Shown piece by piece: positions 5,484 through 14,608 of a stretch of 16,001 bases of DNA. The notes beneath the pieces were generated by a model that was given only the letters and a program-made list of their open reading frames with translations, had not been told where the DNA came from and made no database searches. The stretch is from the NCBI GenBank assembly GCA_016784265.1, contig JADHUZ010000003.1:1-16001 (forward strand), written 5' to 3'. The DNA is from Fidelibacterota bacterium (GTDB lineage Bacteria; Fidelibacterota; BS150m-G59). Each line of letters starts with the position of its first letter. The first letter of the stretch is position 1. Both the position numbers and the translations under genes were made by a program.

Positions 5484-6407
5484 CTATTCGATAAAATCAC
5501 CCTCTAAATAATCCTCAAGATTTAATTTTCCCTCTTCAGACATTTCGCGCAAACGAGAAAGAATGGTGTTTTGGGCAGATTCAACAACACGGCGGAGTTG
5601 TGGCCCGCTCACCAAATCCATCTCATCCTCCAAGATCATCCTCACTTTTTCCGGTTGTACGCTGATGATTTTATCAACAAGATCTTTGAGTTGTCCTTTT
5701 AACGAAAGCGCAATATCTCTTGCCTCAACACCCTTAAAGACCTCGCGCAGCTCTTCATCAGGAAGGTATTTCAAGTCCTCAAACTGAAGATGGTGTTTTT
5801 TGACTTCTTTTGCAAGATCCGGATTTTCTTTCTGCAGACGTTCAAAAAATTGCTGTCCGGCTCGCATGCCCATCAGATCAATCATTTTTGCAAGATTTTC
5901 ACTGCCGCCCTTTTCGTAAGATACGTCCGGTGGCAACGCATGAGATTTTTCTCGTAAATCTGCTGCAATGGACAGCATTCCTTCGTACGGCAAATCGCCC
6001 GGATCGCCAACCGTTACCATAATTTTTGCCTGTTCTTCCGGTGTAAACATTTTAACTACACGATATTGCTTTTTTACATCTACCTGAGCAATCGCGATAG
6101 CGATCACGCGCACAGGCTCGTTTCTCAGTAGGTAAAAAATTTGATCTTCGGATAAATGTTGCAAAAATTCAAAGGGTTGATTGGTATCGTCGGATTTGAA
6201 TTTATCCGAAAGAAATTCGAAATAAAATTCTTCGACGATTTTTTTTCGGACAGACAGAGAAAATTTTTCAAGCGATTCCATTTCTTTGCGAACCTTCTGA
6301 ATCTCGTCTTCTTTTAAGTCTTTGAAAACGGACAAAGCGAGATTCTGCCCGAGAGTTTGAAAAATAATTGCAATCTTTTGATGTCCTGTTGGTGTTATTT
6401 CTGCCAT
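5484..6407 (-). CDS. fliG: FliG-family motor switch (rotor) protein
   Basis: FliG is the cytoplasmic rotor protein that binds the FliF tail through its N-domain and receives torque from MotA through its C-terminal domain. The 307-residue protein is slightly shorter than usual (about 330). Residues 1-75 are the N-domain, with PFEFL at 78-82 opening the middle domain. HLQFEDL at 206-212, DIALSLKGQLK at 231-241 and the charged torque helix LEDEMDLVSG at 259-268 mark the C-terminal domain. The usual EHPQ motif of the middle domain reads NEPVR here, and MFVFEDI reads HLQFEDL. Its ATG overlaps the last base of the FliF-like stop (TAATG). No fliM or fliN is adjacent. Family assignment is firm; a role in a classical flagellum is not. 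Confidence 0.9.
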   Translation of the reverse strand: MAEITPTGHQKIAIIFQTLGQNLALSVFKDLKEDEIQKVRKEMESLEKFSLSVRKKIVEEFYFEFLSDKFKSDDTNQPFEFLQHLSEDQIFYLLRNEPVRVIAIAIAQVDVKKQYRVVKMFTPEEQAKIMVTVGDPGDLPYEGMLSIAADLREKSHALPPDVSYEKGGSENLAKMIDLMGMRAGQQFFERLQKENPDLAKEVKKHHLQFEDLKYLPDEELREVFKGVEARDIALSLKGQLKDLVDKIISVQPEKVRMILEDEMDLVSGPQLRRVVESAQNTILSRLREMSEEGKLNLEDYLEGDFIE

Positions 6408-7759
6408 TATTGAGTCTCCTCCATTGCTGCGGTTGCTGGTTTTTCGCCACCATTAGATCCTGCATCCATAAGCCAGTCTCCCATAATTCGTTTTGCTGTA
6501 TCAGGATTTCCAACAGACAGCGCGACGACCTGATTTCGTAAGGCGGCAACATCGCGTCGAAGCACGGCGGGATCTACTTTTTTTGTTGAAGGCGTGTCGC
6601 CGTTTCCTTGTTGCTGTGCGGGAGACGGTGCAATTTCTTTGTGCGTCCACCGCCGAATGACAAACAAAAGGAGCGCTACAAACACGATAAATAGAACAAC
6701 ACCCAAAGCAATTAGCATTTTATAGCCACCGCCGAAAGCCCCGCTCTCTGTTCGAGACAATGATTTTTTGTCAAGCACAGAAATCATTTCCTCTTGTTCT
6801 GTAATGGTTTGTTCCATTTTTTGACGCTCTTTTTGGAGATTAGAAACAACTCTGTTATTACGTTTTTCGAGACTGTCAACACGGCTACCAATGAGCGAAA
6901 GGTTCCCCAAATACGTTTCAACTTGTTGATTAAGAAGCGTATTTTCAGATTCCAACTCACGAATAGAAATATCTTTATCTGCGATGATTTTTTCCGGAGA
7001 AAGCGAAAGGTTTCGATAAAGCAAGAGCGAATCTTTCAGCGCAGATTTTTGCCTTAAGTCGTCAAGCGCGTTTTCCATTTCGTGAATTTTTTCTCCAAAT
7101 TGGTGAACCATAACATCGTTCACAGCAAGAGAGCCGTCGGCAGAAAATGGCGCATGTTGAATATCTAACTCGTCGCCACGATCGCCGTCATAACCTGAAA
7201 CTTTTTGAATCACATATCGCACTTGTTCTTCGGTTTGTGGTGTGATTTCCGACGAAAGAAAAACGTGAATAGTTAATCGTATAATTTGTGGCAACTGTTC
7301 AAAAAGATGTTTGTACGAGCGTGGCTTTACTTCGGATTTTTCATCTGCATCAGAAGGCTCCTCACTCTCGGTGAGATAATTTTCCGAAGACACTTCGTCC
7401 GGCAAATCTCCCACGGCAGGTAATTGCCATGGCATCCCAGGAGTTGAATTCAACGAAAATGATGAGGGTGGAACAAGAGATTGCTCCGGAAAAACGCCAC
7501 CATTTCCCTCGACAACACTTTCCTGCTCCACGACAGGAACGAATTTAATTTCAGCAAAAACAGAAACGATAAAATCGCTATCCAGCAACTTATTCAACGC
7601 TGATTCAATTTTTTCATGAATGTTTTGCTCGATGAGAATTTGTTGCTCCAAAATCCCAAGATTTTGGCTCAAAAGACAAACAGCGAACAAGTTTATTAAA
7701 AAGACGCACAATAGTGAAAAGCGGTATCTTTTTTTGCTAAGATTTTGACAAAATGCCAT
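6407..7759 (-). CDS. Reduced FliF-like inner-membrane ring protein with periplasmic coiled coil
   Basis: Numbering is from ATG 7759 (450 aa), which has GGGGG five bases upstream; ATG 7771 is an alternative. Residues 14-31 form a signal or anchor helix. Residues about 48-80 (KIESALNKLL...VFAEIKFVPVVEQ) and 159-205, ending in GYDGDRGDELDIQHAPF, match the two halves of the third ring-building domain of FliF. A Pro/Ser/acidic insertion of about 75 residues lies where FliF has its beta-collar. Residues about 215-330 are a heptad-rich coiled coil. Residues 348-371 are a membrane helix. The cytoplasmic tail about 396-430 ends in SVGNPDTAKRIMGDWL, the FliF-type FliG-binding helix. RBM1 and RBM2 are missing. 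Next-door fliG fits the binding tail. I infer the base of a reduced MS-ring; another anchoring role is possible. Confidence 0.75.
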   Translation of the reverse strand: MAFCQNLSKKRYRFSLLCVFLINLFAVCLLSQNLGILEQQILIEQNIHEKIESALNKLLDSDFIVSVFAEIKFVPVVEQESVVEGNGGVFPEQSLVPPSSFSLNSTPGMPWQLPAVGDLPDEVSSENYLTESEEPSDADEKSEVKPRSYKHLFEQLPQIIRLTIHVFLSSEITPQTEEQVRYVIQKVSGYDGDRGDELDIQHAPFSADGSLAVNDVMVHQFGEKIHEMENALDDLRQKSALKDSLLLYRNLSLSPEKIIADKDISIRELESENTLLNQQVETYLGNLSLIGSRVDSLEKRNNRVVSNLQKERQKMEQTITEQEEMISVLDKKSLSRTESGAFGGGYKMLIALGVVLFIVFVALLLFVIRRWTHKEIAPSPAQQQGNGDTPSTKKVDPAVLRRDVAALRNQVVALSVGNPDTAKRIMGDWLMDAGSNGGEKPATAAMEETQ

Positions 7760-7822
7760 TTTTACCCCCATAATTCCCCCATTAAAAATACAAAAAACAC
7801 GGAAATTCACAAATGGTTAACA

Positions 7823-8524
7823 TTACTTTGGTTCGTTTCTCAACCAAATCATTTCGATCCTACGATTTTTTGCACGATTGCCCTGTGAATTGTTATCGGT
7901 AACAGGAAAATATTCACCGAAACCACGTACTTGAAATCGAGGAAAATTGCCCGCAGGCGAACGAACGATTGGTGTTGCGCCCATGTATAACAGGTGCTCG
8001 ATGACGCGTGTTGCTCTTGCGCCGGAAAGATCATAATTGGAAGACCATGCGAGATTGTCAGAAACTGGTGTGTTGTCGGTGTGTCCTACAACAGCAATTG
8101 GGCTTCCCGATTGTCTAATTTCTGGTAAAATTTCATGTAAAATATCAATAAATTTTGGCGTAAGATCGGATGAAGCCGACCGAAAAAGTATTTCGTTTGG
8201 TAGCGTAAACTTGACCCCTTCTGGCGTTGTTGTTACCGTAGATCCTTCGATGTCTTCGGCGATCTTTTCTAGTCCGCTGCGGGTTTCCGATAGTGTTTTT
8301 AGCGTGCCATAATCTTCAGAAAAGCCGCGCCCCTTTTCAGCGGCTTCTGGGTTGAACGCTTCAACCATTTGTTCGTATTTAACGGAATCAATGCTCGACA
8401 TAGCGAATAGCGCAATGAAAAAGGTCATTAATAGTGTCATTGTATCGGCGTAAGTAATAAGCCAACTTCCGTCATTGGTTGACTTATCCGACCCAAGTTG
8501 CTTTTTGTAATGCTGGCCGTTCAC
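7823..8524 (-). CDS. motB: MotB-family stator protein with OmpA-like peptidoglycan-binding domain
   Basis: MotB pairs with MotA to form the ion-conducting stator and anchors it to peptidoglycan. In this 233-residue protein, the helix WLITYADTMTLLMTFFIALF carries Asp27, the expected ion-binding residue. A linker of about 65 residues is followed by an OmpA-like domain at about 115-230 with VVGHTDNTPV, YDLSGARA and NRAKNRRIEM, the peptidoglycan-binding motifs. The start is a GTG whose TGA-overlapping junction with motA (GTGA) suggests strict coupling. Ion type (proton or sodium) cannot be decided from the sequence alone. TolR/ExbD is excluded by the OmpA domain. Confidence 0.93.
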   Translation of the reverse strand: MNGQHYKKQLGSDKSTNDGSWLITYADTMTLLMTFFIALFAMSSIDSVKYEQMVEAFNPEAAEKGRGFSEDYGTLKTLSETRSGLEKIAEDIEGSTVTTTPEGVKFTLPNEILFRSASSDLTPKFIDILHEILPEIRQSGSPIAVVGHTDNTPVSDNLAWSSNYDLSGARATRVIEHLLYMGATPIVRSPAGNFPRFQVRGFGEYFPVTDNNSQGNRAKNRRIEMIWLRNEPK

Positions 8525-9375
8525 TCTTTTTCTTTTTCGACGGGCGCCTCTTTGGGCTTGTCAACGCTATCTATCCACATTCTTGGTGGCAAATAAGCAT
8601 TCATTTTTTCTTTGACAAACAGAGGATGTTGTTTGTGTAAAACCAAAACAAGACCTTCCAGCATCATGTACTTCAAATTTTTTGTTGTGTCAACAGACTT
8701 ATCAATTTTTTCACCCAGCGGTAGAAAAAACATATTGGCGAGAATTGTGCCGTATAGCGTAGTAATCAAAGCTGCGCCCATGCCAGTTGCAAGGCTTCCC
8801 ATAGGATTATCGGATTTTGTGCCGAGCGATTGCATCATAACAACTAAGCCAACAAGAGTTCCAATCATTCCGAACGCAGGGGCATATTTGCCGACAGAGC
8901 CGAGCAGTTTCGCATCTGCTTTGTGACGCAATGAGTCGCTTTCAATCCGAGTGGTCATAATCCCAGAGATTTTATCTTCCGAATATCCCTGCACAATCAT
9001 TTCGGCACCATCTTTTAGAAATGGATGTGAAATACCGTTTTCTGCGAGATTTTCGAGTTCAAAAGAGCTTTTGCGATGTGCCTTAGCCATTGCAATAATT
9101 TCGTCGATATACGCCGAAGGATTATCTCGCTCTTTTCGCATGACTGCTGCGATAATTTTTGGAAAACGAAGAGTTTCTTTCACAGGGAAGCTCATCAAGG
9201 TTGCTGCCAAAGATCCGCCCAGTACAATTAAAATAGATGGCGTGCTTGCAAAGAAATCAAACATTTGGATAAGTGCTATGCTAATATTCGGTTCTGTTAC
9301 CATGAGCAATTGTAAAATTGCATAGAGAACAAGCCCAATACCAAGCAGTATGCCGAATATTGTTCCAAGATCCAT
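8521..9375 (-). CDS. motA: MotA-family stator channel protein
   Basis: MotA surrounds the MotB helix and turns ion flow into torque on FliG. The 284-residue protein shows four membrane helices at about 5-25, 45-63, 163-183 and 199-220. The TPSILIVLGGSLAATLMSFP stretch belongs to helix 2. KYAPAFGMIGTLVGLV carries the conserved Pro166 at the start of helix 3, and TTLYGTILANMFFLPLGEKI carries Pro219 in helix 4. The large cytoplasmic loop 64-160 would face FliG. This is true MotA rather than TolQ/ExbB. The ATG follows the upstream gene's TAG with no gap (TAGATG), and its end overlaps motB. Confidence 0.94.
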   Translation of the reverse strand: MDLGTIFGILLGIGLVLYAILQLLMVTEPNISIALIQMFDFFASTPSILIVLGGSLAATLMSFPVKETLRFPKIIAAVMRKERDNPSAYIDEIIAMAKAHRKSSFELENLAENGISHPFLKDGAEMIVQGYSEDKISGIMTTRIESDSLRHKADAKLLGSVGKYAPAFGMIGTLVGLVVMMQSLGTKSDNPMGSLATGMGAALITTLYGTILANMFFLPLGEKIDKSVDTTKNLKYMMLEGLVLVLHKQHPLFVKEKMNAYLPPRMWIDSVDKPKEAPVEKEKE

Positions 9376-10767
9376 CTATTTATCACCCGGATTTAGTTTT
9401 TTTTGATTCATTTGATTGCGTATTTGAGTTAGACTTGTCTTGACGCTGGTAAATTCAGGATCGATTCGGAGAGCAATTTGCCAGTTTAGCGTGGCGCGCC
9501 CAACATCTCCCGTGCGGTAATAAATTGATCCGCGACGCGCGTAAGCTAACGCCAAATTTGGGTTCAAATCAATTGCTCTATTGGCAAACTCAAGCGAGCG
9601 GCTATAATCCTTTGCTTGATAATGTTGCAATGATTCATAAAGATATCGCAATGCGCGATTTAGATTTTTTTCATAATTAAATCGAGAAAGCCTAATCGTA
9701 CGAATAGAGTCAATATAAACATCTAATTGCTTTCTATGTTTTGCTACAGAATTTTGTAAGTTGAAAACCTCGTTTTTATACCACAGCACAGAATCTCTCA
9801 GCACAGAAACTTGCCCTATCGACTCAAAAGAAGGTGTTTTAGTTTTGCCAAGAGAAACAGAATCTCTTTCGGTAAATACGCCGCTAACAAGTGGTGATTC
9901 CGGAAGATTGCGTTCTTTGGCCGTTCTGTTTGGACGAGGAAAATCAACGCTAAACCCGACCACAAGGGCTGGACTTTCTTGCTGAGAGAATTCTTCTCGT
10001 CCCCACTGCGGCAGATTTTCTACATTAACGAATCCAGCAGAACAAGAGAAATTATTCAAGACTGGAATTTTTGCACCGATATTGATTCCACCACCATCGT
10101 ATTCTGCAATAAAATCCCATACTTTTTGACTGCGCGCAGATTTTGTCCTCAAAAGAAAACCGGCAAACAAACCAATCGGCGAGCCTGTCGAAGAGCCGCT
10201 TTCTAATTCACCCTGAAGATCATGGCTAAACCGTCCGCCCCCCAAACCAAGATAAGAATGAATAAAATAATCTTCAAATCTGTTAATCTGGCTGATCACC
10301 AAAAAAGGTGCCATTTCTCGAAATCCGGTAGTGTTTCTGGAGGCTTGGTCTTTCGAAGCAACAACCTCAACCACAAAATCTTGAATCCCACAGGAAATGC
10401 TAAAATCATGGAATTTTGTAATTAAATATTGAAAATGAAACCCAAACTGTGTTTTTGTTAAAGTATCAGGGATTGAAACTGGCGGTTGAACAATGGATGT
10501 GTTAAAACGTATTTTGGGCGTGATGTCGCTTTCGAAGAAAATCCCGCGTCGCCACAATGTCTCAGGGTCAAATTGGATCATTTCGGCAGATATGCCGACA
10601 CGAAACAGATATGGCGAACGATAACTTTCGCTTGTTGGTATGTCCATCATCTGCCCAGGGCGAATAAAGCCCAAGTTTTCTGGCTCGACAGAATTGTTTT
10701 GCGCAGAAGAAACGATGAAAGAGGCGAGAAAAAACATCAAGATAATATTGAGCGATTTATAATTCAT
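9376..10767 (-). CDS. Outer-membrane beta-barrel protein with C-terminal coiled coil and TPR repeats
   Basis: I recognise no named family for this 463-residue protein. It has a signal peptide (residues 1-22, cleaved near SSAQ). Residues about 50-275 are rich in alternating aromatic strands of the kind seen in outer-membrane barrels (YLFRVGISAEM, FGFHFQYLI, YFIHSYLGLGGGRF, SPALVVGFSVDFP). A Ser/Thr/Pro linker and a short coiled coil (320-365) precede two TPR-like units at 370-450 (ALRYLYESLQHYQAKDYSRS, then NPNLALAYARRGSIYYRTGD). An AAGGATG lies before the ATG. It abuts motA directly, so the pair is co-translated. I infer that it links the stator or rotor in the inner membrane to the outer membrane, with the TPR part in the periplasm. 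Confidence 0.65.
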   Translation of the reverse strand: MNYKSLNIILMFFLASFIVSSAQNNSVEPENLGFIRPGQMMDIPTSESYRSPYLFRVGISAEMIQFDPETLWRRGIFFESDITPKIRFNTSIVQPPVSIPDTLTKTQFGFHFQYLITKFHDFSISCGIQDFVVEVVASKDQASRNTTGFREMAPFLVISQINRFEDYFIHSYLGLGGGRFSHDLQGELESGSSTGSPIGLFAGFLLRTKSARSQKVWDFIAEYDGGGINIGAKIPVLNNFSCSAGFVNVENLPQWGREEFSQQESPALVVGFSVDFPRPNRTAKERNLPESPLVSGVFTERDSVSLGKTKTPSFESIGQVSVLRDSVLWYKNEVFNLQNSVAKHRKQLDVYIDSIRTIRLSRFNYEKNLNRALRYLYESLQHYQAKDYSRSLEFANRAIDLNPNLALAYARRGSIYYRTGDVGRATLNWQIALRIDPEFTSVKTSLTQIRNQMNQKKLNPGDK

Positions 10768-10824
10768 GGATACATCCTTTTTGTCTCAGAAACGGTTATT
10801 TTCAAATGGAATTTGTTTGATTTT

Positions 10825-11736
10825 TTAATCGTAATTCTCCCATTCAATTTTGTACGTATAGCCCAAGTGAGTAGCAAAATCTTGAGGAATAAATATTTCA
10901 AAATTTCCGGCATCTCCCGATTCCAATGAAGCATCGGAAACAATTCCGTTTTCGAAGTTGCAAACAGACCCCTTGACAAACGCAGTGAAATCTTTCGTGG
11001 AACCGCTCCAATCGGTTCGAATTGTAAAAACGATACGAACAAAATCTGCTCGCACGCCACCTTCATTTTTGATGGTTCCCATAAATCGGGTATTATTCAG
11101 ACGATCGCGAAATTCGTCAATTTTTCCGACAAGGACACAATGTGCGGGATACTCATCAATCAAAATGTTTTGCTGGACAGGCACCTGATTTTTTGTAAAA
11201 GATTGATTGAATGTTTCTGCTAAAAACGGGTGCGTTTCCAAATCAAAACCGAAGGTGTCATCAGTGTTTGATTTTATCAAATTCTCAACTCGAAGAACAT
11301 CATCTTTTGGGACAACCAGTTGTCCAATAAATGTTTCCAAGGTCAGCGACGACACATCTTGAGTGATGATATTGCCATAAATCTGTGTGCCGTTTTTCAG
11401 TATTATTTCTTTTTCGTATGCGGATGTCGGACTAAGCCAAACGTTGCTTTTTGCCTCGAGATTATCAACAATGGTTTGTAAATGCCGAAGTTCTGCACGA
11501 AGTTTTTTAAATTCATATTCTAACTCCACAACATTATAATTTGACCCAGAATGGCGATTAATGTCTTCATCTAAATTAACAACAGGTGGCTGAAGATTGG
11601 TCGTGGCTCCAGTAGTATCTGCCGCCAGAAAGCGCTCTTCCGCCGAATGCGTAAGCGGCATCACCGCCCGAAAAGGACCGCATTGCACGAGAACCAAAAC
11701 AAAAACCAAAGCAACGGATAATTTTAAAATATTCAT
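10825..11736 (-). CDS. Lipoprotein B of the motor cluster: coiled coil, SH3-like and FxLYD-like domains
   Basis: This is a 303-residue protein of unrecognised function. The signal ends in LVQC, giving a lipid Cys at 19. A coiled coil follows at about 67-98, then a small beta domain with the pattern ILKNGTQIYGNIITQD...LETFIGQLVV at 110-153 that resembles Sm/SH3-like folds. The C-terminal domain at 199-300 has TIKNEGGVRADFVRIVFTI and SLESGDAGNFEIFIP, as in FxLYD-type domains where a strand pair ends in a hydrophobic 'F.v' edge. It is a paralogue of the gene at 11874-12689: GGVRADFVR, CVL.G, GS..F..G..SD and a YT...W tail are shared. A promoter-like site lies upstream. The barrel-TPR gene follows after 57 nt. 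Confidence 0.75.
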   Translation of the reverse strand: MNILKLSVALVFVLVLVQCGPFRAVMPLTHSAEERFLAADTTGATTNLQPPVVNLDEDINRHSGSNYNVVELEYEFKKLRAELRHLQTIVDNLEAKSNVWLSPTSAYEKEIILKNGTQIYGNIITQDVSSLTLETFIGQLVVPKDDVLRVENLIKSNTDDTFGFDLETHPFLAETFNQSFTKNQVPVQQNILIDEYPAHCVLVGKIDEFRDRLNNTRFMGTIKNEGGVRADFVRIVFTIRTDWSGSTKDFTAFVKGSVCNFENGIVSDASLESGDAGNFEIFIPQDFATHLGYTYKIEWENYD

Positions 11737-11807
11737 TTTTAATTTCTCTCTTCTATTTGGTGTTTTTTTGCCGATAATACCATTTCATTCAAAATATATC
11801 TCCCGAA

Positions 11808-11836
11808 AATATAAGAGTAATAACGCGCACAGACAA
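11808..11836 (-). promoter_or_regulatory. Predicted sigma-70-type promoter before lipoprotein B
   Basis: On the minus strand, TTGTCT (11836..11831), a 17-nt spacer and TATATT (11813..11808) lie in the 137-nt gap between the two paralogous lipoprotein genes. The start point would fall near 11801, giving a leader of about 65 nt. It could drive lipoprotein B, the barrel protein, motAB, the FliF-like gene and fliG separately from the two upstream genes. Confidence 0.4.
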
Positions 11837-11873
11837 GGCTTTTAAGATGTTTGTTCATAGCAATAAAATCTGT

Positions 11874-12689
11874 TTAATCCCAGTGAATTTCATGGGTGTA
11901 ATATTCGCAAATTGTTTCTTTGGGTAGTGTTATCTGGATTGAAAAATCTCCGCGCTGTTCCGGCTCGAGGCAGGTGTCCGAAATCACACCGCTTTGAAAG
12001 TGAACAACGGAGCCGGCAACAAAACACGAATCCGTTAAAATAGTATTCGTTTGTTCGTCGGATAACGTAAAAACGACGCGGACAAAATCAGCGCGCACAC
12101 CACCATTGTTTTTCACTTTTCCGCTAAAAGAAAACACATTGTCTTCAAAAGCCTCTTGCAATTCTCCGTCGAGCACGCAATTTGATTTTGGTTTTTCTAT
12201 CTGGCGAATGGTTTTAATTTGTGATCTTTCAAGCCGAAGATTGCCGATGGATGTTTGCAACACAACGGTGTCAAACGCTTGATCTATGATTTTTCCCCTG
12301 ATAGTTGTCCCATAGTTCATTTCGATTTCGTGCGTTTGCTCATCTTCGCCATCGAAGAGAGAATATATTTCACGTTTGAACCCTTCGAAGCGTCGGATAA
12401 CATCGTAATGAGCAACAGATTGCTTTAATCGTGAAATTTCACTGCGAATTTCAGCGATGTCTTTTTCGACCCGAAAAAATTGTTTCCCCATCTGTCTGGA
12501 AACATCTTCAATCTGTCGCCGGCTGACAGTATCGCTGATTGTCTGTTTTGTTGTATCTAATCTGGTGGTATCTGCGGAAACAATTTCCGGTGCGCTTTCT
12601 TCAATGTTTTCAGGACGCCCCCCGAAACCGGGCATCCAAGCGCATCCGAGAAACATTACAACGAATGTGAATATGCAAAAGGCTTTCAT
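11874..12689 (-). CDS. Lipoprotein A of the motor cluster, paralogue of lipoprotein B
   Basis: I start this at ATG 12689 (271 aa), which yields the short lipoprotein signal MKAFCIFTFVVMFLGC with lipid Cys16. It lies one base after the HEAT gene stop. The frame extends to 12788 but that part is only overlap. A coiled coil runs about 60-112. A small beta domain (EIEMNYGTTIRGKIIDQ...LQTSIGNLRL) occupies 121-160. The C-terminal FxLYD-like domain (171-270) has VKNNGGVRADFVRVVFTL and SGVISDTCLEPEQRGDFSIQ. Domain order matches the lipoprotein encoded next door, so tandem duplication and divergence are likely. I infer an envelope part of the motor system; the exact function is unknown. Confidence 0.78.
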   Translation of the reverse strand: MKAFCIFTFVVMFLGCAWMPGFGGRPENIEESAPEIVSADTTRLDTTKQTISDTVSRRQIEDVSRQMGKQFFRVEKDIAEIRSEISRLKQSVAHYDVIRRFEGFKREIYSLFDGEDEQTHEIEMNYGTTIRGKIIDQAFDTVVLQTSIGNLRLERSQIKTIRQIEKPKSNCVLDGELQEAFEDNVFSFSGKVKNNGGVRADFVRVVFTLSDEQTNTILTDSCFVAGSVVHFQSGVISDTCLEPEQRGDFSIQITLPKETICEYYTHEIHWD

Positions 12690-12690
12690 A

Positions 12691-13821
12691 TTATTTATCG
12701 CCCAAAGTTGTTTTATGCGCCATGAGCGCCGCGAGCCGAAGTTGCTGCAAATCATTTTCTGTGCCCTTACTGCGAATAAGTTTTTCAACCGGCGGATATA
12801 AAAAATAATTGTCGCGATTTTGCATCAACACGATTAATTCATCAATAACAGGTTGATCGGCGACGAGTGATAGTTTTTCAACTGCGGACTTGCGAATGTT
12901 TGCAGGCGCTTCTCCGTCTTTGACGATATCAAGCAGTGTTGGTATTGCGCGCACATCCTGAAAATCTGCAAGCGCCCCAACAAGAGCATCGAGCAAAGAG
13001 TAATAATCTTTTTTGTTTTGTTGATGCGCCTCCATCAGTGCCAAAATTATCCGCTCGTCGGAGACATCTTCAATTGATTTCAGTGCAAAATCGCGGACAG
13101 AAATCTGTGATTCGGGATCGCTCAGAAGGTCTGCAAAAGCATCTGCAACAACGGGATCCTCTTTCTTTGCGAGCATCTCGATAACACGATTGCGAACAGA
13201 GGTGTTTACTGTTTCATCCGTGGCGATGCTGATTAAAATTGGCACGACACGCTGATCGTCCATGCTACCCAAAATTTCTGAAATTGAAGTTTGAACAGAA
13301 AAATAATCTTCCTTGCTGTATTCGAGTATTTCAATGAGCGGAATGATAATTTCATCGTCTGGGATGGATTGAAGCGAAGAAATTAATGTATTGCGCAAGT
13401 CAAGATATGCTAATCTTATCTCGCCGAGAGAAGCCACAACAGCCAAAGAATATTCCCTGTTTCCGCTTGCAGAAAGAACTTCGAGTGCCGTTTTTGACAT
13501 CTGTAAATTTGTTTTAGCAAAATTGGGCAACTGGCCAACAATAGCAGAAAGTCCAACCGGATCGTTCGTTTCCCCAATAGCGATTATGGCAGATTCTCTT
13601 GTGCTTGCAAGCAACTTTTCGTTGTTCATGGCAGCGATTAAATCGAAAATACGCTCGACCTTTCCGGATTGATATTTTACTTTGGCGCGAAGGATATCTT
13701 CTTGTGTTAGCAACTGATTTTGCACACAATTACATAGCATCAGAATTAGGAGCACCCAAATCGTTTTCACGAAAAAAGATGATTTATGCGCGATTCGGTG
13801 CTGATTTGAATAAAAATTCAT
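12691..13821 (-). CDS. HEAT-repeat lipoprotein
   Basis: The 376-residue protein has an N-terminal membrane-targeting stretch TIWVLLILMLCNC with probable lipid Cys32. The -1 Asn is unusual, so lipidation is tentative. The rest is helical, in about eight HEAT or armadillo-like pairs with repeated patterns such as DDQRVVPILISIATD, DDEIIIPLIEILEYS and DVRAIPTLLDIVKDG. Such solenoids serve as protein-protein scaffolds. The start is uncertain: ATG 13821 lies at the predicted transcription start of a strong promoter-like site, whereas GTG 13770 (VKTIWVLL) gives a standard short lipoprotein signal and a leader of about 50 nt. It is the first gene of the motor block, joined to lipoprotein A by a one-base gap. 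Confidence 0.8.
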   Translation of the reverse strand: MNFYSNQHRIAHKSSFFVKTIWVLLILMLCNCVQNQLLTQEDILRAKVKYQSGKVERIFDLIAAMNNEKLLASTRESAIIAIGETNDPVGLSAIVGQLPNFAKTNLQMSKTALEVLSASGNREYSLAVVASLGEIRLAYLDLRNTLISSLQSIPDDEIIIPLIEILEYSKEDYFSVQTSISEILGSMDDQRVVPILISIATDETVNTSVRNRVIEMLAKKEDPVVADAFADLLSDPESQISVRDFALKSIEDVSDERIILALMEAHQQNKKDYYSLLDALVGALADFQDVRAIPTLLDIVKDGEAPANIRKSAVEKLSLVADQPVIDELIVLMQNRDNYFLYPPVEKLIRSKGTENDLQQLRLAALMAHKTTLGDK

Positions 13822-13876: not shown

Positions 13877-14608
13877 TTATGACCAATAATGTAGTGAAAG
13901 TTTGTTGTTTTCAAATTTTCCATAAGAAAAATATTTCATCCAATCGCCGAGAATTAGAAATCGTTTTTTGCCATCATTCAACTGATGCGGACGATGAATG
14001 TGTCCGAACAAAACAAAATCAATTTCGCCTTTAAATTTTGTTTTGGCAAATTCCTCGCCCAAAATAGTCAAGCGTTCGACAATTGCATCTTCGCTTGAAT
14101 TGTAGCGTCTGCTGGATTGCGAAATCATTTCGGCAAATTTAAATCCAATGTCAGGATGTAACCATTTGAACAGAAATATCGCCACGCGACTTCGCAAAAT
14201 TGATTTCAAGATTTTGTAGCCAGTGTCGCCGGGCAAAAGTCCATCGCCATGCGCGAGGAAAAATCGTTTTCCATTAATCGTGATCTCATGTTCCGGTGGA
14301 ATAATTTCGACATCCAGATGGTTAGTAAAAAAATCACCCAACCAGAAATCATGATTTCCGCCCAAGATGTAAATTTTCGTGCCAGAGCCTCGCAAGGAAG
14401 AAATCCCGCAAAAAATCTGATGATGATATTTTGGGATAACATGCTTGTAATCAAACCAAAAATCAAACAAATCTCCCAAAATATACAACGCATCTGCACC
14501 GTGTATGGATTGCAAAAATTCTATCAGTTTTTCACGGCGCGATTTTGTGTCTTGTGTTTCCAAATGACTTAAATGTGCATCGGAAATGAAATAAATCGCC
14601 TTTTCCAT
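13877..14608 (-). CDS. lpxH: UDP-2,3-diacylglucosamine diphosphatase, LpxH family
   Basis: LpxH hydrolyses UDP-2,3-diacylglucosamine to lipid X in lipid A synthesis, at the inner-membrane surface. The 243-residue calcineurin-like phosphoesterase has the full metal-binding set: FISDAHL (Asp10, His12), LGDLFDFW (Asp46), GGNHDFWLG (Asn85, His86), AHGDG (His120) and FGHIHRPH (His203, His205). The ILGDLFDFWF spacing and the helical insert about 128-170 are LpxH-like rather than generic phosphoesterase. Linkage to waaA, kdsC and lptBC within this window supports a lipid A role. The ATG at 14608 diverges from thiI across a 91-nt gap in which I see no clear promoter for either gene. Confidence 0.88.
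   Translation of the reverse strand: MEKAIYFISDAHLSHLETQDTKSRREKLIEFLQSIHGADALYILGDLFDFWFDYKHVIPKYHHQIFCGISSLRGSGTKIYILGGNHDFWLGDFFTNHLDVEIIPPEHEITINGKRFFLAHGDGLLPGDTGYKILKSILRSRVAIFLFKWLHPDIGFKFAEMISQSSRRYNSSEDAIVERLTILGEEFAKTKFKGEIDFVLFGHIHRPHQLNDGKKRFLILGDWMKYFSYGKFENNKLSLHYWS

Follow-up and report, generated by a model that had tools for sequence, protein, structure and literature searches.

A candidate flagellum-independent motor built from flagellar stator and rotor proteins in the marine SAR406 phylum

The stretch of DNA analysed here (the window) is one whole contig of 16,001 nucleotides, JADHUZ010000003.1, from a draft genome of 0.96 Mb that is 65% complete and belongs to the Marinimicrobia/SAR406 phylum (Neomarinimicrobiota, Fidelibacterota). 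Read along the minus strand from 13821 to 5484, it encodes a HEAT-repeat lipoprotein, two lipoproteins designated LpA and LpB, an outer-membrane barrel protein with tetratricopeptide repeats (barrel-TPR or BarTPR), the stator proteins MotA and MotB, a reduced FliF and FliG, as assigned from the list of open reading frames (ORFs) and by Pfam. An earlier note on this DNA had described these eight ORFs as an unbroken minus-strand block with very tight junctions, had noted the absence from it of the genes that normally accompany a flagellar motor, and had suggested a non-flagellar rotary machine. The ORFs lie where it placed them, and the junctions are indeed tight: TAGATG between barrel-TPR and MotA, GTGA between MotA and MotB, and TAATG between FliF and FliG. 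The window shows no recognisable fliE, fliH, fliI, fliM, fliN or flh gene, whether in the ORF list, by Pfam on ten proteins or, for the remaining flank genes, by eye. The names LpA, LpB and BarTPR, like the labels LpxH, HslV, KdtA, KdsC and LptB used below for flanking genes, were given by eye, with no database behind them. The features are as follows.

12691-13821, minus strand: HEAT-repeat lipoprotein, accessory (HEAT_2, 4e-16), at a separate locus in the relatives read.
11874-12689, minus strand: LpA, a lipoprotein paralogous to LpB, with a lipobox-like LGC; the listed ORF extends to 12788 from an upstream TTG, and ATG 12689 is the likelier start.
10825-11736, minus strand: LpB, a conserved lipoprotein with a coiled-coil-like segment, an N-terminal beta-type domain and a C-terminal domain common to LpA.
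9376-10767, minus strand: barrel-TPR protein, with a signal peptide, a predicted outer-membrane beta-barrel (residues ~53-277), a long helix (315-384) and TPR (388-458).
8521-9375, minus strand: MotA, stator subunit (MotA_ExbB, 1e-24).
7823-8524, minus strand: MotB, stator subunit with plug and OmpA-like peptidoglycan-binding domain (MotB_plug, 1.2e-19; OmpA, 1.5e-9).
6407-7810, minus strand: reduced FliF, with an N-terminal hydrophobic signal-like segment, RBM3/collar (~50-223), helices forming a putative stalk (231-351), a transmembrane helix (363-389) and cytoplasmic tail helices (414-452); its GTG start is uncertain and the true start may be a downstream ATG.
5484-6407, minus strand: FliG of a non-flagellar clade (support 100/100), with Pfam FliG N, M and C domains.

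LpA and LpB recognise each other in phmmer searches at 1e-24 and 1e-25, and in the window 57 bp separate LpB from the barrel gene, with no gene between them.

The stator genes conform to the MotAB family. The MotA profile matches solved MotA chains at 1.8e-67 and TolQ at only 8.6e-5, and the far better match to MotA led us to reject a TolQ/ExbB identity for this protein. Pro173 and Pro222 of MotA are present in 19 of 19 aligned sequences and Glu98 in 18, while the equivalent of MotB Asp32 occurs in all 19 and that of Pro52 in 18. Asp32 of MotB, the two prolines of MotA and the OmpA-like domain, detected by Pfam in the window MotB, together give the pair the features of a MotAB stator.

FliG is equally recognisable and yet set apart from its flagellar counterparts. 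Its three Pfam domains score 51 (N), 40.4 (M) and 86.4 bits (C, 2e-24) against cut-offs of 25, 25 and 23.3, the middle domain being more diverged than the other two, and the protein falls below the NCBIfam equivalog TIGR00207 (118.9 bits against a cut-off of 226.7). Its sequence relatives in the PDB are chains of FliG or of FliF-FliG fusions. A tree was built from 60 sequences: 37 motor FliGs, 18 flagellar FliGs from this phylum and, as outgroups, 5 others. In it the 37 motor FliGs, with the window protein as a long branch, lie on one side of a branch with 100/100 support. The EHPQ motif, through which FliG binds FliM (PMC6290876; this and the other papers cited by PMC number were available in part, and statements taken from them concern those parts), is lost in the motor FliGs: its His and Gln are retained in 0 of 37 sequences each, against 21 and 23 of 23 in flagellar FliGs. 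FliM binding through this motif is not predicted for the motor protein. Lys264 and a basic residue at position 281 are kept in all 37.

The gene order is conserved well beyond the window. Compared with 60 relatives, all of the same phylum, the window FliG found matches in 48 of the 61 genomes (its own included), which fall into a close class (E <=1e-45) and a distant one (9e-21 and weaker), with some genomes containing both; a first contig scan with this FliG as query had given no match. Among the 35 close-class loci fetched, 34 show, on one strand, LpB, one or two further genes, barrel-TPR, MotA, MotB, FliF and FliG; the 35th (L025) is cut by a contig end and its order cannot be judged. When an LpB alignment was used as the contig-search query, it found 188 relatives, of which 80 were kept (73 named Marinimicrobia or Neomarinimicrobiota, 7 with non-specific names); this set, recruited through LpB, speaks only for motors that have one. 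Across the 115 loci, the six-gene core from LpB to FliG is complete and in order in 85, partial but in order in 29, and broken in none. Most of the partial loci (25 of 29) run out no more than 1.2 kb before their stretch ends, and in three (L065, L079 and L113) FliF was not matched by the window query. Because one order recurs in 85 of 115 loci and no locus breaks it, the six-gene core is not a chance arrangement. The further genes between LpB and the barrel were looked at in 15 loci, and each of the ten scanned, all from relatives, matches TPR. At the remaining partial locus (L129; CP070787.1, ~12.8-13.4 kb), the barrel-TPR gene enters a run of N and continues as RND-transporter-like sequence, which suggests that scaffolds were wrongly joined there; the record is titled chromosome.

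The HEAT-LpA pair behaves differently. Six relatives with an LpA-like second match away from LpB were fetched, and in all six an LpxH-like gene and HEAT precede the LpA-like gene; the sequence read around them, truncated in the LpxH of L146 and at several ends, holds no motor gene. The window apart, none of the fetched motor loci showed a HEAT match. The eight-gene operon described in the earlier note was thus rejected as a conserved unit: the six genes from LpB to FliG stand, the HEAT-LpA pair is a second locus joined to them here, and the eight-gene arrangement looks particular to the lineage of the window. Its suggestion that the envelope genes belong with the motor holds, in that the barrel and lipoprotein genes are linked to the motor genes in every locus long enough to show it. 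Since HEAT-LpA co-occurs with the motor across genomes, as described below, and is fused to it in the window, the two may well share a function.

We next consider how the motor is distributed, using 176 genomes of the phylum (those at least 80% complete, plus that of the window), to which all counts apply. The LpB family is present in 144 genomes (in ten by weak matches only, best E >1e-25, which are probably LpA or chance), the FliG profile in 139, of which 127 carry the strong, motor-type match, and a HEAT homologue (E <=1e-25) in 137. LpB family, strong FliG and HEAT are missing together from 32 genomes, and no genome without the LpB family has HEAT. FliG associates with the LpB family at a Fisher p of 5e-23 and HEAT with the LpB family at 1e-28, compared with 0.10 for the motor and flagellar genes, all three values ignoring shared ancestry. 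The motor-less genomes are spread over the families labelled f6 and f24 and parts of f5, f13, f8 and f15, so that more than one lineage acquired or inherited the joint absence of all parts. Family f6 comprises 14 streamlined genomes of 0.7-1.0 Mb without motor FliG, LpB family or HEAT; SprA is found in 13 of them, and only 1-4 sorting tails are left.

These counts bear directly on the simplest alternative, that the genes encode the motor of a normal flagellum or are the decaying remains of a flagellar gene cluster, as the homology of all four motor proteins to flagellar ones might suggest. FlhA exceeds its cut-off in 36 of the 176 genomes and FliM in 35, and 96 of the 127 strong-FliG genomes lack both. 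The remaining 31 have a motor FliG together with FlhA, FliM or both; six genomes (G015, G037, G041, G045, G155 and G158) carry flagellar genes without a strong motor FliG, and 43 carry neither. Motor and flagellar FliGs lie apart in the tree; the 18 flagellar ones all adjoin a full-length FliF, and 15 of their genomes have a motor FliG as well. Decay would also be hard to reconcile with a gene order conserved across the phylum, the loss of EHPQ and a re-built FliF. With a FliG clade of its own, a conserved operon and 31 genomes holding both systems, we rejected a flagellar remnant and regard this explanation as extremely improbable. In the genome of the window, the single FliG_C copy is the window FliG, and FlhA and FliM were not found, a weak negative in a genome that is 65% complete. 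Two outcomes had been named in the earlier note as fatal to its proposal, a complete flagellar gene set elsewhere that uses this fliG and motAB as its single motor, and relatives in which the envelope genes are never linked to the motor genes; neither was seen, and its view that the motor is distinct from the flagellar one is borne out by the 96 genomes without FlhA and FliM, the 15 with both FliGs and the lost FliM-binding motif.

The FliF-like protein has been cut down. Pfam detects YscJ_FliF_C alone (9e-6) and lists no other FliF domain, and only the RBM3/collar portion of flagellar FliF (FliF 241-440) is matched; the fold of this portion is present, but the series RBM1-RBM2-RBM3 with two membrane helices is not. 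A stretch of 120-211 residues that flagellar FliF lacks follows RBM3/collar in 18 of 19 FliF-like proteins. As predicted from sequence and models, the protein would consist of a ring-forming RBM3/collar, a helical stalk, one C-terminal membrane helix and a FliG-binding-like tail, preceded by the signal-like N-terminal segment. A 120-residue helix would, if extended, measure about 18 nm (1.5 Å per residue), but the two helices in the model could instead double back on one another. The barrel-TPR protein, whose relatives here are the best 120 of 803, models as an outer-membrane barrel. All models are of single chains, against about 33-34 subunits in the S-ring of flagellar FliF, and the alignment rows behind those of the FliF-like and barrel-TPR proteins mostly cover single domains, so that other parts are barely tested. 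The alignment of 20 LpB sequences has 31 invariant columns; a lipobox-like site reads LVQC in the window and is found by a simple pattern in 16 of the 20 rows, and profile comparison found no PDB relative of LpB below 0.1 (best 0.11). LpB residues 103-150 weakly match the Leptospira N-terminal domain family NF047433 (4.5e-8, below cut-off), two of the 20 LpB rows match CarboxypepD_reg, and LpA gives weak matches to the LA_3334 and FxLYD models.

From these observations we propose that the locus probably encodes a flagellum-independent motor driven by the proton motive force (PMF), built from flagellar stator and rotor proteins and turning a rotor that spans the envelope. We are confident that the motor is non-flagellar and consider real rotation likely; that its output is surface motility or adhesin movement has slightly less than an even chance. 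Sequence and models indicate intact ion-path residues in MotA and MotB and a FliG with FliF-binding, middle and stator-facing domains, in a machine apparently without a recognised filament, export gate or FliM/CheY switch. Peptidoglycan-anchored MotAB would push a cytoplasmic FliG ring without FliM or FliN, and this ring would turn a ring of FliF-like subunits, whose stalk would carry the rotating RBM3/collar ring up into the periplasm. There it could meet LpB and the TPR/coiled-coil arm of the outer-membrane barrel; HEAT-LpA would serve as an adaptor, as would the one or two coiled-coil TPR proteins of relatives. The output would be work at the outer membrane or on the surface of the cell, most likely the movement of surface proteins for gliding or adhesion.

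Several observations weigh against this proposal. Arg297 of the FliG torque helix is lost in all 37 motor FliGs, and Asp288 and Glu289 are each kept in 18; in MotA, Arg90 is found in its column in 0 of 19 sequences (by eye, an Arg lies one column on), as is Glu150. Given these changes, the stator-rotor contact may differ from the flagellar one. The MotA tree, with its long branches, does not separate motor from flagellar MotA; one FliF-like protein (L028) has only 45 residues between RBM3 and its second membrane segment (TM2); and the FliG-binding-like tail was matched by hhalign with a probability of only 33%. Coupling of the parts is imperfect: 17 of the 144 LpB-family genomes lack a strong FliG, 14 genomes have HEAT without a strong FliG and 4 a strong FliG without HEAT, which we take, without proof, for assembly gaps. 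Assembly loss can likewise explain a missing FlhA or FliM in a draft genome, though hardly in 96 genomes at once. Moreover, the phylum's only cultured member, Fidelibacter multiformis IA91 (genome of 2.79 Mbp), is described as non-motile, with no mention of gliding or flagella in the available part of that text (PMC11652737), yet its likely genome, G016, an assignment that we infer, has motor FliG, LpB family and HEAT without FlhA or FliM and appears to carry the motor. Finally, that the FliF-like protein forms a ring, binds FliG and touches the barrel is itself inferred, and the proposal draws entirely on sequences and predicted models.

The altered contact residues also raise the question of whether the complex turns at all. 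A static scaffold, or an ion-gated signalling complex, could use the FliF/FliG fold without rotation, and the loss of FliG Arg297 in 37 of 37 sequences and of Asp288 and Glu289 in about half of the rows, with the displaced MotA Arg90, would fit such a role. However, a full MotAB pair with its ion-path residues, and a FliG in which Lys264 and the basic residue at 281 are conserved, make it a very doubtful one.

A second alternative keeps the energy coupling and gives up cell movement. Here MotAB and the FliF/FliG ring would couple the PMF to the outer membrane, much as Tol-Pal does, for constriction, stability or the handling of lipid and lipopolysaccharide (LPS), and continuous rotation would not be needed. 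The phylum offers some room for such a machine: TolB_N exceeds its Pfam cut-off in only 21 of the 176 genomes, with at most 27.6 bits, and has no match in the other 155. In relatives, secreted coiled-coil TPR proteins are encoded between LpB and the barrel, and of the 10 scanned 7 also match YfiO and one, weakly, TolA_bind_tri (0.0083); LPS genes, assigned by eye, flank the locus in the window; and the cultured member is called non-motile (PMC11652737). Nevertheless, the MotA match to MotA far exceeds that to TolQ, and the retention of FliG and of the ring domain of FliF indicates a rotor, for which Tol-Pal has no counterpart. The joint loss of LpB family, strong FliG and HEAT from 32 of the 176 genomes fits a dispensable function better than envelope integrity. 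We consider this explanation unlikely, if worth keeping in view.

A third alternative concerns what the motor might drive. In most of the SAR406 phylum, the flagellar rotor and stator could replace GldLM as the drive of the type IX secretion (T9SS)/gliding machinery or SprA-linked surface apparatus. Por sorting-domain genes had been noted earlier in SAR406 bins (PMC5596340), and GldLM powers both T9SS and the movement of SprB in Flavobacterium (PMC8986121). A replacement of GldLM is attractive because SprA and sorting tails are nearly universal in the phylum (SprA_N in 170 of the 176 genomes, T9SS sorting tails in all 176, at most 31 being scored per genome) while GldL and GldM are nearly absent: each exceeds its cut-off in a single genome, with seven genomes matching GldL at E <=0.001. 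The good GldM and GldL hits (95.4 and 105.5 bits) share one contig (G147:C9), which is possibly foreign DNA. In 14 control genomes, however, no match was obtained for SprA, GldM or GldL, the sensitivity for GldL and GldM rests on G147 alone, and a divergent GldLM is possible. Above all, 18 genomes without strong FliG, LpB family and HEAT keep SprA and at least 20 sorting-tail matches; secretion cannot, therefore, depend on the motor everywhere, and for this reason we rank the idea as a rival and consider it rather improbable. It is not exclusive of the PMF-driven motor proposed above, of which it would be a special case. If true, it would provide a second, independent way to power surface movement of the T9SS type, with a rotary flagellar motor at work without a flagellum.

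The flanks of the motor locus within the window, assigned by eye, are those of an LPS and envelope neighbourhood. Downstream, between 19 and 5406, lie HslV, RpoN, LptB, a short lipoprotein, KdsC and a KdtA-like gene, and upstream, at 13877-14608, an LpxH-like gene; of the flank genes, the Pfam scan covered PanD and the LpxH-like phosphoesterase. An HslV homologue lies ~3-4 kb from HEAT-LpA in two relatives (L144 and L146), and HslV is at the other end of the window. An HslV/HEAT-LpA neighbourhood may have gained the motor by insertion or may have lost it.

If the proposed motor is real, torque generation by MotAB, FliG and FliF exists apart from flagellum, export gate and switch, and is conserved in a large, mostly uncultured marine phylum, whose cultured member would allow its function to be tested. 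As a natural minimal motor, it would let the roles of FliF and FliG be studied in the absence of FliM, FliN and an export apparatus, and it would inform the question of how the flagellar motor came into being or was taken apart. There is a practical side as well: a survey of marine metagenome-assembled genomes calls flagellar motility from fliG, fliM and fliNY, two of the three being required (PMC10359470), and fliG taken alone from that marker set would mislead in this phylum. A description of such a system was not found in the literature searched, which included the available parts of PMC5596340, PMC8630151 and PMC10359470 and covered neither preprints nor most subscription papers; the accessible part of PMC7693769 holds nothing on non-flagellar motors.

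Comparison with known machines would place the proposed SAR406 motor among PMF-driven devices that act across the envelope. With Tol-Pal it would share the coupling of PMF from the inner to the outer membrane, and Tol-Pal also employs coiled-coil TPR adaptors; the SAR406 motor differs in having MotA rather than TolQ and rotor proteins, in a phylum where TolB_N is weak and confined to 21 of 176 genomes. The Agl-Glt gliding machinery of Myxococcus is another case in which a motor of the MotAB class, of TolQR type, is tied to outer-membrane and TPR proteins and produces surface movement, without FliF or FliG; the likeness we find to GltE is only at the generic TPR level (best 0.027, 2 of 19 members). 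GldLM, which serves type IX secretion and gliding in Bacteroidota, is likewise a PMF motor acting across the envelope (PMC8986121), and SprA and sorting tails are present in the SAR406 phylum, but the SAR406 motor is built from MotAB, FliG and FliF where GldL and GldM are nearly absent. Closest is the bacterial flagellar motor, to which the SAR406 machine is related, as its homologous stator and rotor indicate. The two have in common a stator and two rotor proteins, the ion-path residues of MotA and MotB, the domain order of FliG and the RBM3/collar fold of FliF. They differ in that the SAR406 FliG lacks the FliM-binding motif, and in that its FliF has no RBM1 or RBM2 but a long stalk and a single membrane helix towards the C terminus. 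To our knowledge, a machine that lacks export gate, switch and filament is unlike known systems, and the genes of this one are linked to those of a lipoprotein and an outer-membrane barrel, in a phylum where 96 of the 127 genomes that carry it have neither FlhA nor FliM.

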